A DNA stretch of 64,000 nt from Luteitalea sp. TBR-22. Lineage in GTDB: Bacteria > Acidobacteriota > Vicinamibacteria > Vicinamibacterales > Vicinamibacteraceae. The translations under genes were made by a program, and so were the position numbers. The stretch spans positions 558,001-622,000 of the forward strand of contig NZ_AP024452.1 of NCBI RefSeq assembly GCF_016865485.1. The letters run 5' to 3'. Positions 8,923 to 15,739 of the stretch are shown in pieces. The notes below the pieces were generated by a model that searched no databases, had not been told where the DNA came from, and worked only from the letters and a program-made list of their open reading frames with translations. Each line of letters begins with the position of its first letter. Position 1 is the stretch's first letter.

Positions 8923-9483
8923 TCAGTCGATCCGTTCGAGTTCGGCCTCCACCTCGGCGTCGGTCTTCAGGCGGTTCTCGACCGAGAACTCGCCGTAGCC
9001 GATGGCCAGCGACTGCGCGAGCATCCGCTCGACGTGGCTGTTCACCGTGCCCTCGAGCTTCACGCGCCCCTGCTCGACCACGATGTGGATCGGCGGGTTG
9101 GCCATCGACGCGTACTGCCAGAACGACGGGTTGCCGTAGATGGCGCGGGCGATCCGCAGCCGCAGCTCGTCGTCGAACCGCGACACCGGGAGCACCTGGA
9201 TCTGGTTGTCGATCTTGCGGACACCCTCGACGCGCGACACGCGGCGCGTCAGGTCCTGCACCTTGTAGGGCATGGTCACCTTGCCGGTGAGCGTCACCAC
9301 GCCGTCCTGCACCGAGGCGTTGACGCTGTCGAACACGGTGAAGTTGACGTACTGCTGCACCTGGCGAGCAACGCCCTGGAAGATCTGGAAGTCCTTGCGC
9401 TCGACCACGTCTTCGGCGCGCGCGCTGGCGGCGAGAGTGAGGGCGAGCAGGCCGGCGGTGAGAAGTCGAGTGACGGTCATCAT
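8923..9483 (-). CDS. Exported protein with two BON domains (OsmY-like)
   Basis: 186 aa. Signal peptide of about 23 residues (LLTAGLLALTLAASARA), then two BON modules. The first is around residues 35-100 (YVNFTVFDSVNASVQDGVVTLTGKV), the second around 105-175 (IHIVVEQGRVKLEGTVNSHVE). Both carry the alternating hydrophobic and glycine pattern of the family. BON proteins such as OsmY bind phospholipid surfaces and act in the periplasm under osmotic or envelope stress; here the location follows from the signal peptide. It starts MM, so the second ATG is equally possible. The gene is monocistronic, with its own terminator downstream and a 220-bp spacer to the divergent MFS gene. Confidence 0.88.
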   Translation of the reverse strand: MMTVTRLLTAGLLALTLAASARAEDVVERKDFQIFQGVARQVQQYVNFTVFDSVNASVQDGVVTLTGKVTMPYKVQDLTRRVSRVEGVRKIDNQIQVLPVSRFDDELRLRIARAIYGNPSFWQYASMANPPIHIVVEQGRVKLEGTVNSHVERMLAQSLAIGYGEFSVENRLKTDAEVEAELERID

Positions 9484-11870: not shown

Positions 11871-11940
11871 TTACCCGCTACCCGCTGCCCGCTGCCCGCT
11901 GCCCGGCGCGCGCTGCCCGGTGCCCGGTACCCGGTACTAC
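11871..11940. repeat. Heptanucleotide tandem array, CTGCCCG
   Basis: Ten units in exact 7-bp phase (TTACCCG, CTACCCG, CTGCCCG three times, GCGCGCG, CTGCCCG, GTGCCCG, GTACCCG, GTACTAC). The last unit contains the TAG stop codon (minus strand) of the VWFA gene. The remaining spacer 11673-11870, between the VWFA stop and the divergently read ZIP start, shows no gene. Confidence 0.92.
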
Positions 11941-12962
11941 TGCGCCAGATACCCCCGCCGGGCACGGACCTGGTGGCGGCCGCCGGTCACGTCGACGCGG
12001 ATGGCGTGCCAACGACCGTCGCGGGCCCGCGGGGGCACGTACCCGATCGAGTACTGGCGCGAGAGCTCGTCGGCGATGCTCGCGGTGGTCGGGTCGAGGT
12101 CGTTCGCGTAGCGGATCACCTCGGTGCGGCCGCCGCTGTCGTCGGTGATCGCCCGCAGCACGTTCACGTTCACCGCGTCGTCGTTGCCGGTGCGACCGCG
12201 GCTGCCGGTGCGCGGCTGCCGACCGCCCCCCCAGGTGCCGCCGGGGAACGGGAAGGGGAAGGGCAGCTGCACGCGCGCCGGTCCCTGCCAGGTGCCACCC
12301 GACGAGTAGCCGCTCGGCGTGCCGCCGCCATCGATGCCGATTGCGTAGACGAGCACTTCCGTTTCGCGGATCAGCCGCTGCAGCGCCACCGGATCCGTGC
12401 TGCTGTCGGTGTCGTTGCCGTCGGAAATCACGACCACCGCCTTCTTCTTGTGACGTCCGCCCTGCGCCATGGGCACGGCCTCGGCCACCGCGTCATAGAG
12501 GGCGGTGCCGCCGCGCGGGCGAATCTGCTGCAGGCCCGCCGACAACTGGCGGCGGTCGGTGGTCCAGTCGCTCACCAGGTCGGTGCGGTCCGAGAAGCTC
12601 AGGAGGAACAGCTCGTCCTCCGGCGCGAGCAGGTCGTACATGAACCGATCCAGCGCCGCCTGCGCGGCCCGGAACTTCTCGCCCGACATGCTGCCGCTCA
12701 CGTCGAGCACGATGCCGAGGCTCACCGGGACGCGCTCGCTGCTGAAGTGCGAGATCTGCTGGCGCTCGCCGTCCTCGTACACCACGAAGTCCTCCTTGCG
12801 GAGGTTGGACACGAACCGCCCCGACGCGTCGGTGACCGTCGCGGTGACGTTGATCAGCTCCGTCGTGCTGCGGAACTTGAAGCCGTCCTGCGCTGCGAGC
12901 GGCACGACCGAAGCCGCCGCGACCAGGGGGAGAACGAGCGAGCGACGAAGGGTGGTGATCAT
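11937..12962 (-). CDS. VWFA-related secreted protein of the acidobacterial type
   Basis: 341 aa with signal peptide (SLVLPLVAAASVVPLAAQ). An N-terminal beta-rich segment (residues about 25-75) contains VNVTATVTD-like and EDFVVYEDGERQQI motifs characteristic of this family. A von Willebrand factor A domain (about 80-290) follows, with a complete MIDAS site: DVSGSMSG, Thr in GGTALYDAV and Asp in VVVISDGNDTD. The C-terminal 60 residues include a Gly/Pro-rich disordered segment. Such proteins are abundant in Acidobacteriota; adhesion or protein-protein interaction in the envelope is inferred. It is the last gene of an apparent operon with the HTH-TonB protein and a membrane protein. Its stop codon lies inside a heptanucleotide array. 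Confidence 0.88.
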   Translation of the reverse strand: MITTLRRSLVLPLVAAASVVPLAAQDGFKFRSTTELINVTATVTDASGRFVSNLRKEDFVVYEDGERQQISHFSSERVPVSLGIVLDVSGSMSGEKFRAAQAALDRFMYDLLAPEDELFLLSFSDRTDLVSDWTTDRRQLSAGLQQIRPRGGTALYDAVAEAVPMAQGGRHKKKAVVVISDGNDTDSSTDPVALQRLIRETEVLVYAIGIDGGGTPSGYSSGGTWQGPARVQLPFPFPFPGGTWGGGRQPRTGSRGRTGNDDAVNVNVLRAITDDSGGRTEVIRYANDLDPTTASIADELSRQYSIGYVPPRARDGRWHAIRVDVTGGRHQVRARRGYLAQ

Positions 12963-12966
12963 GGGT

Positions 12967-13071
12967 GAACGCCTGACGCTTGACGCTTAACGCCTGATGT
13001 CGAATGACCCGACGCTTGACGGTTGTGACCGATACGAAGGCCGAAGGCCGCCTGCCGAAGGCCGCCGGTTC
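12967..13071. repeat. Heptad tract joining two word families in phase (TGACGCT then AAGGCCG)
   Basis: Fifteen consecutive 7-bp units fill nearly the whole spacer between two co-directional genes. The tract begins with GAACGCC, TGACGCT, TGACGCT and TAACGCC, decays in the middle, and continues as AAGGCCG, AAGGCCG, CCTGCCG and AAGGCCG without losing phase. It abuts the VWFA start codon and reaches the stop codon of the upstream gene. No Shine-Dalgarno is visible for the VWFA gene in it. Confidence 0.85.
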
Positions 13072-13955
13072 TACCGCTTGTCCACGTGCGGCACCAGCGC
13101 GCCGTCGGGGCCGCGGAACGTGACGCGGTAGCGGCGTCCGTCCTTGTGCACGGGGAGCTCGACCGCGAAGCTCGCTGCCTCGCCCGGCCGCAAGCGGGCG
13201 GCATCGACGGGCGTCCGTGCGCTGCCGAGGAAGCCGCCGGCCTGGTCGAGCAGCATCACGCTGGCAACCAGGCTGGTGCGCGCCGAGCCGGCCACGGGGT
13301 TCTTGACGCGGCCACGCACCAGCAGCGTGTTGCCGTTCCGCTCGTGACCCAGTGCCTCCAGTTCGAGCGGAATGCCGGTCGTGGCCAGTGCCTGGGTCGG
13401 GGCGGTCGTGGAGGTTGCCGCCGGCGTCGCCGGGCGACCGAACAGCAGATAGGCGGCGGCGATCAGGCTCACCAGCACCAGGCCACCGAGCGCGATGAAC
13501 TTGCGCAGGTCGGTGCCGGTCGCCGTGTCCGGCCCCTCGCCGAAAAGTCCGCCGGTGCGCGCCGCAGGACCGTCGGACGGCGTTGGCGACGAGGTCGTCG
13601 CCCACTGGTGCGCCAGCGCATCGTGCAACGGCGCGTCGATCGTCGGCGCGTCGTCGTCGACGGCCTCGCTCCTGAACGCCCGCAGCTGCTGCGTGTCCGA
13701 CTCGAGATAGACCACGTCGGGAGTGCGCGGTCCCACCACCTGCGGCGCGGCCGCCGCCGGCGCGGCGGCCCGGGCGGCAAAGCCCACGGGCGTCGCGCGT
13801 GGCAGGCCGGCGGCGTACGCAGAGTCACCGTCGAGCGCGGCGGTCAGCACCGCGACGCGCGCGTCGGACCGACGCTGTTCTTCACGCAGCAGGCGGTATG
13901 CGAACCAGCCGAGGCTGGCGGCCATCACGAGGGCGGCAATGGTGACGATGAACAT
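13071..13955 (-). CDS. Membrane protein with extracytoplasmic beta domain, unknown function
   Basis: 294 aa. Helix at the N-terminus (IVTIAALVMAASLGWFAYRLL), a low-complexity Ala-rich cytoplasmic or linker region to about residue 145, a second helix (FIALGGLVLVSLIAAAYLLFG, about 150-171), a Thr/Ala linker, and a C-terminal domain of about 100 residues. The C-terminal pattern (LVRGRVKNP, SVMLLDQAGGFLGSART, LRPGEAASFAVELP) resembles FxLYD/DUF3426-type beta-sandwich domains. It starts nine bases after the HTH-TonB gene with a GAGGAA ribosome-binding site, so the two are likely co-translated. The function is unknown; the context suggests an envelope complex with TonB. Confidence 0.75.
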   Translation of the reverse strand: MFIVTIAALVMAASLGWFAYRLLREEQRRSDARVAVLTAALDGDSAYAAGLPRATPVGFAARAAAPAAAAPQVVGPRTPDVVYLESDTQQLRAFRSEAVDDDAPTIDAPLHDALAHQWATTSSPTPSDGPAARTGGLFGEGPDTATGTDLRKFIALGGLVLVSLIAAAYLLFGRPATPAATSTTAPTQALATTGIPLELEALGHERNGNTLLVRGRVKNPVAGSARTSLVASVMLLDQAGGFLGSARTPVDAARLRPGEAASFAVELPVHKDGRRYRVTFRGPDGALVPHVDKR

Positions 13956-13964
13956 GGGAGTTCC

Positions 13965-15041
13965 TCAGCGCAACCTGAATTCGACGGCGACTTCGACGAT
14001 GACGTCGACGGGGCGACCCTTGCGCGTCGCGGCCGCGAACGACCAGCGACGCACGGCCTGGATGGCCTGCTGGTCGAGGCCGGCACCCAGTCCGCGCAGC
14101 ACGCGCACGTCGCCCACGCGTCCGTCGCGCCGCACCACGATTTCGAGCACCACCTCGCCCTCCACCCCGCGGCGCCGCGCGTCCTCGGTGTAGTCGGGCT
14201 TCACTTCGTTCAGCAGGCGCGGCGGCTGGATGCCGCTGCCGGGGCGGAACGGGCCACCGCCCTCGCCGCCCCCTTCGCCCTCGCCGACACCGGAGCCCTG
14301 CCCCTCGCCGAGGCCGGTTCCCGAGCCGGTGCCCGCACCGCCTCCGTCACCCGATCCACGGCTGGGTGGGGCTGGCGGGCGCTGCTCGAGCACGCCGGCC
14401 TGCGTGTCGGCATCGTGGCTGCGGGCAGCCACCGGCGCCTCGACCGGCGGGAGCGGCTCGGGGGCCTTCGGCGTGGGAGGCGGCTCCTCGATGGTCGGGG
14501 CCGGCTTCTCCACGACGGGCTTGCGTTCGGGGAGCGGGCTCTTCAGCGGCGACGTGCCTTCACGCCGTGCCTGCGGCGCCGGCGTCTTCATGCGCAGCCC
14601 GCCGCCGCCACCGCCGCCGCCGGGACCCGGCAAATTCAGGTAGACCAGGCGCATCTTCTCGGCGGGGCGCTCGATGGCCTGCGCCGACGTCGAGCCGAGC
14701 GGCACCAGCGTGGCCAGCAGGAGGCCGCCGATCATCGCGCCGTGCACGGCCGCCGAGGCGGCGGCCGGCAGGCCCGGCGAGCGCCTGGAGCCGTTGGCGC
14801 GGGAGAACAACGATCCGGGCGTGGCGGTGACCGCGGCCGCGTTGGCCAGCGGGAACGGCAGGCCGGCGCGCAGTCGACGGGCGGCATCCACGGCGTCGTC
14901 CGGTGCGACGAACTCCCCGTCGATGCTGCGCAACGTCCCGGCCGCGATCAGGTCGGCGACCAGCTTGGGACGTACTCCGGCAGCCCTGGCGATCTCGCGG
15001 GCGGTGAAGACGTCGGGCAGCGTGAGAGGTGTGTGTGGCAT
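13965..15041 (-). CDS. TonB-family protein with N-terminal MerR/excisionase-like HTH domain
   Basis: 358 aa. Residues about 10-55 form a helix-turn-helix of the MerR/excisionase type (FTAREIARAAGVRPKLVAD then IAAGTLRSIDGEFV). A membrane anchor follows (about 90-118, HGAMIGGLLLATLVPLG), then a long Pro-, Glu- and Gly-rich periplasmic spacer including runs of eight glycines. A C-terminal TonB domain ends the protein (about 275-358: KPDYTEDARRRGVEGEVVL, AVRRWSFAAAT). Standard TonB proteins transduce proton-motive force to outer-membrane receptors and have only a short cytoplasmic N-terminus. Here a DNA-binding-like domain would lie in the cytoplasm, suggesting a membrane-bound regulator or a protein-protein module. 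It is the first gene of a three-gene operon with the downstream membrane and VWFA proteins. Confidence 0.85.
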   Translation of the reverse strand: MPHTPLTLPDVFTAREIARAAGVRPKLVADLIAAGTLRSIDGEFVAPDDAVDAARRLRAGLPFPLANAAAVTATPGSLFSRANGSRRSPGLPAAASAAVHGAMIGGLLLATLVPLGSTSAQAIERPAEKMRLVYLNLPGPGGGGGGGGLRMKTPAPQARREGTSPLKSPLPERKPVVEKPAPTIEEPPPTPKAPEPLPPVEAPVAARSHDADTQAGVLEQRPPAPPSRGSGDGGGAGTGSGTGLGEGQGSGVGEGEGGGEGGGPFRPGSGIQPPRLLNEVKPDYTEDARRRGVEGEVVLEIVVRRDGRVGDVRVLRGLGAGLDQQAIQAVRRWSFAAATRKGRPVDVIVEVAVEFRLR

Positions 15042-15196
15042 CCGTCCCCCCGCGGGGTGTATGAACGCCGACTCTCAGCGCAACAACCGTGCCCGATGCC
15101 CACCGGGGCGAAATCTGGCGATCTTTCGCGGGAAACGCGCCAGCGGGCTTGCCGGGCGCGACGGGCAGGACAGGCGTGTCCTGCCGTGGGGACACT

Positions 15197-15739
15197 TCAG
15201 CCGGGCTGCCCCTTGAGCGCCTCGACGATGGCAGCGCCGTCCCGGTCGAAGAGGACCCGGGCTCCGCGGAAGTGAGCGGCACAGGTGGCCTGGACCTCGG
15301 CCGGCGGCGGTGCGCCGGGCGCTTTGTGGCGTACCACCAGCACGACGCGTCCGCCCGACCGGAGCACCCGCCGAATCTCGGGCAGGACGTCGGCCACCGG
15401 AGCCGAGGCGGCGTCGACGACGACCAGATCGAAGTCGCCTTCGGCAAACGGCCAGGTGGCGGCCTCGACCTCGGCGACCTCCACGAGCACGCCGGCCCGT
15501 TCCGCGGCCAGGTGCAGGGTGTTGGCGTCCTCGGCGGTCGTGGCCAGCGCGATCGCCTTGCCGCTCAGGCCCGTGACCTTCGCGAGGGCGGCGACCAGGC
15601 CCGCGTCGCCGGCGCCGACCGTCAGCAGGCGGTCACCGAGGCGGGCGTCGATCATGCGCGTCAGCAGGTCGTAACGGCCCGGGTCGCCGCGCAGCCAGCG
15701 GACCAGCACGTTCGATGCGAAGACCTCGGCGAGCGACAC
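15197..15739 (-). CDS. Class I SAM-dependent methyltransferase-like protein
   Basis: 180 aa from a GTG codon. The Rossmann core shows a SAM-binding glycine motif as LLTVGAGDAGLVAALAK (about residues 38-54), an acidic residue after strand 2, the strand-4 motif FDLVVVDAAS (about 103-112) and the post-motif LRSGGRVVLVVRH. The protein is short and lacks a recognisable substrate domain, as in ubiE/methyltransferase-11-like proteins. The substrate is unknown. The 155-bp spacer to the tonB-like gene upstream contains nothing recognisable. It may form the end of that region's transcription or be independent. Confidence 0.7.
   Translation of the reverse strand: MSLAEVFASNVLVRWLRGDPGRYDLLTRMIDARLGDRLLTVGAGDAGLVAALAKVTGLSGKAIALATTAEDANTLHLAAERAGVLVEVAEVEAATWPFAEGDFDLVVVDAASAPVADVLPEIRRVLRSGGRVVLVVRHKAPGAPPPAEVQATCAAHFRGARVLFDRDGAAIVEALKGQPG

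Follow-up and report, generated by a model that had tools for sequence, protein, structure and literature searches.

A predicted winged helix-turn-helix before the membrane anchor of a TonB protein in Luteitalea sp. TBR-22 and its order

What is a helix-turn-helix (HTH) doing in front of the membrane anchor of a TonB protein? The question is raised by a gene in a 64,000-nucleotide stretch of the Luteitalea sp. TBR-22 genome (NZ_AP024452.1, positions 558,001 to 622,000), which is called the window here and in which all coordinates are given; the genome is one contig of 6.47 Mb. A first-pass annotation, made from the sequence, had read the product as a cytoplasmic MerR/excisionase HTH joined through a membrane anchor to a periplasmic TonB domain, and had suggested that it connects receptors directly to DNA, or to another HTH partner, as a possible regulator of receptor genes. 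The gene, HTH-TonB, lies at 13965..15041 on the minus strand, as do all features given with window coordinates below, and encodes 358 amino acids; its ORF, coordinates, and strand were confirmed. The protein has a winged HTH in residues 10-60 (14862..15014), a single transmembrane (TM) helix in residues 90-112 (14706..14774) with a TonB-type S96-x-x-x-H100 motif, which was placed by AlphaFold2 and the alignment, a Pro-rich and Gly-rich, presumably periplasmic linker in residues 138-270 (14232..14630), which was read from sequence and alignment, and a TonB C-terminal domain (TonB_C) in residues 281-357 (13971..14201). TonB_C was matched by Pfam PF03544 at 4.7e-21 (75.5 bits, cut-off 24.6) and by TIGR01352 at 8.1e-17 (61.3 bits, cut-off 27.1); Rfam gave no match anywhere in the window. 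In 44 of 53 orthologs the net charge of the 20 amino acids preceding the TM helix is greater than that of the 20 following it, and from this topology, which comes from sequence only, we infer that the HTH is on the cytoplasmic side and TonB_C in the periplasm, as had been proposed.

By Pfam score the HTH of the window protein is below the cut-offs, AbiEi_4 reaching 15.1 bits with the whole protein and 18.2 bits with the first 63 amino acids where 25 is required; the protein has the same predicted fold as HTH_17, MerR_1, and AbiEi_4 but is no member of these families by score. When the 53 orthologous N-termini were searched singly, the most often matched Pfam families were HTH families, namely, AbiEi_4 (21 of 53, best 1.5e-6), HTH_17 (19), Rv2175c_wHTH (7), and MerR_1 (6), and HTH_3 and HTH_31 were matched in one member each. 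Matches of these N-termini in PHROGs were to MerR-like (11), HTH DNA binding (9), and excisionase (9) families. An AlphaFold2 model of the N-terminal part, built on an 8-row alignment, gave a confident three-helix HTH domain with helices at residues 14-21, 25-34, and 47-59 and small strands between them, and the mean pLDDT in five blocks of residues 11-60 was 95, 96, 90, 89, and 94. A Foldseek search of the PDB with this model yielded no match at E<=0.001, a value that a 50-residue domain within a 140-residue model would rarely reach. The top Foldseek probabilities were those of BldC (0.92 and 0.91), Pukovnik Xis (0.89), and RacA (0.77), and the VIA-align Z scores, modest for a small domain, were at most 5.4 (BldC), with CvkR at 5.0 and RacA at 4.9; SoxR, other MerR proteins, and CbpM were also among the best fold matches. 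The N-terminal domain is thus predicted to be a MerR/excisionase-like winged HTH, that is, a two-helix HTH, a wing, and a third helix, and here the first-pass annotation was borne out. The BldC, Xis, and MerR-type proteins share this predicted fold but are soluble DNA binders, whereas the domain described here is anchored through a TM helix and varies in its recognition helix and wing.

Translation does not start after residue 60, because codons 10-60 are under purifying selection, the start ATG is common to both congeners, and the domain is conserved across the order. The pN/pS of codons 10-60 was 0.21, 0.29, and 0.29 in the three within-genus pairs, and that of TonB_C was 0.08-0.13 in the within-genus comparisons. 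Over the 53 rows variability within the domain peaks at the exposed positions of the recognition helix, whose mean entropy is 2.73 bits; that of the HTH core is 0.96 bits. The wing-containing segment is 8 to 27 residues long across the orthologs and 15 in the window, and the wing is nearly gone in about nine of the 53 rows. Orthologs of family f5 (e.g., L056, L058, L061, L063, and L071) have a wing region of about 8-10 residues and retain the helix-3 motif; they form a naturally occurring set of deletions with which the role of the wing could be probed. The conserved charged positions are acidic 10 (49/53), acidic 49 (47/53), R52 (38/53), and R55 (42/53). D/E10 precedes helix 1, and D/E49, R52, and R55 are at or within helix 3, so that none is on the recognition helix; the window protein has D at position 52, unlike those 38 orthologs. 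Conserved charges so placed would favour protein contact, and D/E10, R52, and R55 may have a structural role. That the HTH is kept purely for folding or stability and has no partner is hardly credible to us: its wing and recognition helix do drift freely, but the pN/pS of 0.21-0.29 and the conserved charged positions argue against it.

The HTH-TM-TonB architecture, when sought in other genomes, was found in 57 loci that were fetched, all from the order to which Luteitalea belongs. An initial scan of genome contigs with the window protein alone as query gave nothing. Among the 120 genomes that were searched, the TBR-22 genome included, 118 had some match, mostly to TonB_C. The 57 fetched loci represent 13 families of the order and 56 of 119 relatives, so that at least 56 relatives have the architecture; in each locus the N-terminus is HTH-like, as recognised with a strict text pattern for 52 and on inspection for 5. 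Loci L040, L054, L084, L091, and L092, which failed the text pattern and have readable HTH-like N-termini, are outside the 53-row counts; L096, a truncated TonB, and the contig-edge fragments G003 and G069 are outside the 57 loci. A profile built on the HTH-TM part was run against 297 genomes sampled from the phylum. It matched over the HTH in 15 of the 30 genomes that belong to the order, including G019 in which the gene is broken, the remaining in-order matches spanned the TM part only, and 0 of 267 genomes outside the order matched at E<=0.001. Since the profile matches are confined to one order and are absent or broken in some of its members, the HTH-TonB fusion is, judging by these sequences, an order-level invention that some members of the order have since lost or retain only in broken form. 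Split or fragmentary in-order genes were seen at L208 (G035), L205 (G013), and L209 (G019) and reflect either decay or assembly errors; G035 and G013 retain beside them the membrane-protein gene described below. No paper on an HTH-TM-TonB protein was found in the open-access literature.

Does the protein function as a TonB? Like TonB of the ExbB-ExbD-TonB system, it has TonB_C, one TM helix with S-x-x-x-H, and a Pro-rich linker. The SHLS motif of TonB is needed for contact with ExbB (PMC8928145), and S96 (53/53 orthologs) and H100 (52/53) match S16 and H20 of this motif by spacing; its later L and S are partly kept, residue 107 being L in 21 and residue 111 being T, A, or S. The genome has three ExbD matches and four ExbB matches above the cut-off, and the two genes are together at two places. 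Because the TM helix retains the S-x-x-x-H of TonB, coupling to ExbB/ExbD is likely and HTH-TonB probably works as a TonB. Unlike TonB, it places approximately 90 residues, the winged HTH among them, on the presumed cytoplasmic side of the membrane, has a long Gly-rich stretch, and lacks exbB and exbD in the window operon. In this genome TonB_C is attached as well to L003 (at C1:2730416), a signalling-type membrane protein whose HELAH protease motif is M56/BlaR1-like, with further TonB_C genes (L004 and L006) close by; this protein shares TonB_C with HTH-TonB but has a protease part where HTH-TonB has the HTH. Elsewhere in the genome there is an HTH-less paralog that is 47% identical over residues 84-358, has S-x-x-x-H, and is adjoined by its own VWFA gene. 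The presence of this paralog speaks for the HTH being a homodimerisation or paralog-specificity module that pairs two TonBs or keeps the TonB on its own ExbB pentamer and away from the paralog, and so does the position of the HTH, about 30 residues from the TM helix, where it would lie beside the presumed cytoplasmic part of ExbB. On the other hand, the operon has no ExbB gene, and such a module seems unlikely.

The HTH-TonB gene is followed on the same strand by a gene for a membrane protein (13071..13955) and a gene for an exported-looking VWFA protein (11937..12962) that matches TIGR03436, an acidobacterial VWFA family, at 8.3e-60. This order is found in 55 of 57 loci, the two exceptions (L042 and L086) being those in which the contig stops within 181 and 355 bp past the HTH-TonB gene, and thus the operon that had been proposed for the window stands. 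In its AlphaFold2 model the membrane protein spans the membrane with two TM helices; the cytoplasmic loop between them (residues 51-147) is disordered and some 100 residues long, and the periplasmic part is a beta-sandwich, which in Foldseek matched many unrelated Ig-like domains. The protein has no Pfam family and a family search gave only weak similarity to DUF3426. Of 57 VWFA ORFs, 54 retain the metal motif DxSxS. HTH-TonB loci often have methyltransferase, ZIP, and BON genes as neighbours, and in the window Pfam and the neighbourhood identify the usual upstream neighbour as a methyltransferase gene (15197..15739) and a frequent downstream neighbour as a BON-domain gene (8923..9483). In the window and in orthologs, an L-F motif with basic residues behind it is found both in the pre-TM linker of HTH-TonB (about 14780-14830), where F79 is kept in 41 of 53 orthologs, and in the loop before the second TM helix of the membrane protein (about 13420-13560); the two proteins possibly have one shared partner. 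Strong matches to the membrane protein came from 18 of the 30 genomes sampled from the order; an intact HTH-TonB is present in 14 of them, two have no visible adjacent TonB, and two have a broken or split TonB. The partners can therefore part, as 4 of 18 genomes have the membrane protein and no intact TonB adjacent to it. Outside the order 21 genomes have weak relatives of the membrane protein (E 1e-13 to 1e-3), and the seven such regions that were inspected had no HTH-TonB or VWFA match. Oar-type receptors work with TonB in Myxococcus (PMC6434023), and in the window, as in one congener, an Oar-like receptor gene lies not far from HTH-TonB. This gene is the only evidence found that links HTH-TonB to receptors, and the suggestion that the protein regulates receptor genes gains nothing beyond it.

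Upstream of HTH-TonB, 39-52 bp before the start codon, there is a sigma-54-like box, GGCACGGTTGTTGC (15080..15093), that was recognised by pattern and conservation. Boxes were scored as 14-mers with GG and GC 10 bp apart by their matches to GGCACG-N4-TTGC out of 10, with GG and GC obligatory in both observed and shuffled sequences, and L048, whose contig starts 38 nt upstream, was excluded. A score of at least 9 was found in 35 of 52 upstreams (shuffles, mean 0.38 and maximum 3), with a full 10 of 10 in the window and two congeners, and 17 of 52 had no box at this level; with an alternative start definition the box precedes HTH-TonB in 34 of 57. The box is partly palindromic, and on the reverse strand the same scoring gave 18 of 52 upstreams at >=8 and 3 of 52 at >=9. 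For other genes the counts at >=9 were 0/57 (membrane protein), 2/57 (VWFA), 1/49 (methyltransferase), 0/37 (DUF5518), and 1/39 (ZIP); the background at >=8 is not small (VWFA 12/57, methyltransferase 8/49). The commonest form of the box, GGCAAGNNTTTTGC, is present once each in three of eight genomes, always before the HTH-TonB gene, and is absent in the other five. RpoN is encoded once in the genome. Genome-wide, GGCAMGNNNNTTGC had 29 matches versus 24 for the reversed pattern, which is no enrichment, so the case for sigma-54 rests on conservation. On this conservation a sigma-54 promoter probably drives the operon, with the box as its putative -24/-12 element. Sigma-54 has been proposed as a controller of the bacterial exterior (PMC3162934), and such control would fit an envelope operon. 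The word GGCCGAAA occurs in the last 200 nt of 15 of 53 upstreams, about 50-110 bp before the start, and is a possible activator site; how far it lies from the sigma-54-like box differs between them. In relatives the BON gene has the box in 11 of 37 upstreams at >=9 and in 31 of 37 at >=8 (shuffled 1.6), often as TGGCAY...TTGC and in many with a classical TGGCA start (-24/-12-like), and this suggests that the neighbourhood has a putative second unit under sigma-54; the BON box of the window is poor and is without TTGC.

Could the box instead be the autoregulatory operator of the HTH, given forms that are partly palindromic (GGCAAG...TTGCC)? This was ruled out because identical boxes accompany different recognition helices, 7 distinct ones in 8 loci and 5 in 5, and thus the HTH is not the reader of the box. 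Wing-short proteins (e.g., those of L056, L058, and L063) still have the box, and the form in the window genus, GGCACG...TTGCG, is not palindromic.

Does the HTH then bind any DNA? Regulators of the ToxR/CadC type are membrane-bound and have an OmpR-type winged HTH, one TM helix, and a periplasmic domain. HTH-TonB could be a transmembrane regulator of this kind, with the TonB domain as the sensor of receptor engagement or force and the HTH, held at the membrane, binding to promoter DNA; its fold is that of the DNA-binding MerR, BldC, and Xis proteins, and the domain is selected and kept order-wide. However, the recognition helix and the wing (8-27 residues) are variable, the HTH does not read the upstream box, its charge is near neutral, and no DNA target was found, and GGCAMGNNNNTTGC shows no genome enrichment (29 vs 24), so that such a regulator is unlikely. 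HTH-TonB differs from ToxR and CadC in having TonB_C, and Trans_reg_C is absent, with no match at E<=1 in the window protein and none among the 25 families listed for 53 members. The same observations go against the direct receptor-to-DNA link of the first-pass annotation, whose domain architecture and operon are upheld and whose direct gene regulation is not. Low-specificity DNA binding, by which the HTH would tie the chromosome to a PMF-moved envelope protein as a RacA-like nucleoid tether, is very unlikely: RacA is among the best fold matches (probability 0.77, Z 4.9), but the domain is slightly acidic on average (-0.9; 0 in the window), there are 8 lysines in total across 53 HTH domains, and the wing is almost absent in about nine rows. 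The net charge is a weak argument against DNA binding, seven HTH_17/MerR domains of the same genome having -1 to +7. The broader proposal that a membrane-tethered, PMF-driven TonB itself binds DNA, with periplasmic force or receptor status passed through the TM helix to the HTH, we also consider unlikely, although the only target of the HTH that the data take away is the box upstream of its own gene. If true, a DNA-binding TonB would be a one-protein mechanosensitive device for transcription or nucleoid positioning.

The explanation that we prefer, with moderate confidence, is that HTH-TonB is a PMF-driven TonB energised by ExbB/ExbD whose MerR/BldC-like winged HTH is a cytoplasmic protein-docking adaptor. 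The N-terminus of such a TonB would have gained the HTH, which would dock a protein, with ExbB, a soluble partner, and the membrane protein (through its cytoplasmic loop) as candidates; docking would place or gate the TonB stroke, and the stroke would act in the periplasm on the membrane protein or the VWFA protein of the operon or on an outer-membrane receptor. The cytoplasmic placement of the HTH, the docking, and the gating are the inferred parts of this scheme. A docking adaptor is favoured because the HTH core is conserved but the exposed recognition helix and wing are variable, because acidic 10, acidic 49, R52, and R55 are retained, and because the membrane protein co-occurs with an intact HTH-TonB in 14 of 18 in-order genomes. 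It is also favoured because one and the same upstream box accompanies different recognition helices, and because there are precedents for protein binding in RodZ, in GltG, and in CbpM, a MerR-like fold that was solved with the J-domain of CbpA and is among the HTH fold matches. Counting against an adaptor, the leading structural matches are all DNA binders except CbpM and DafA, and variable recognition helices could also mean DNA targets that shifted between lineages.

In gliding machinery, GltJ has a zinc ribbon and GYF; no paper treating GltJ, MglA, and GYF together was found in the open-access literature. GltG of the Myxococcus gliding machinery is described in PMC3169522 as an FHA-TM-TonB_C protein that binds the motor part AglR. 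On that description GltG and HTH-TonB share a cytoplasmic adaptor domain, a single TM helix, and a TonB-like C-terminus; the adaptor is FHA in GltG but an HTH here, and the window protein has no FHA Pfam match. HTH-TonB would be a further adaptor-TM-TonB protein, with the HTH as the adaptor. In RodZ (PMC6946637), an N-terminal cytoplasmic HTH before the TM helix binds MreB and not DNA. An N-terminal HTH before one TM helix is common to both, cytoplasmic here by charge only, whereas the periplasmic domain of RodZ is another one than TonB_C. The HTH of RodZ is of XRE type; the family and fold matches of the HTH described here are mainly MerR/excisionase-like.

In the usual picture a TonB motor stops immediately inside the membrane. 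An HTH conserved at the cytoplasmic end throughout an order of soil Acidobacteria would mean that a TonB motor talks to something in the cytoplasm. The operon, which may be controlled by sigma-54, would also link such a motor to a VWFA protein whose family NCBIfam has named for the Acidobacteria. HTH-TonB allows a clear two-way test, for a protein partner or for DNA. Taken with GltG (FHA) and RodZ (HTH), it suggests that transmembrane force transducers have repeatedly gained cytoplasmic docking domains.
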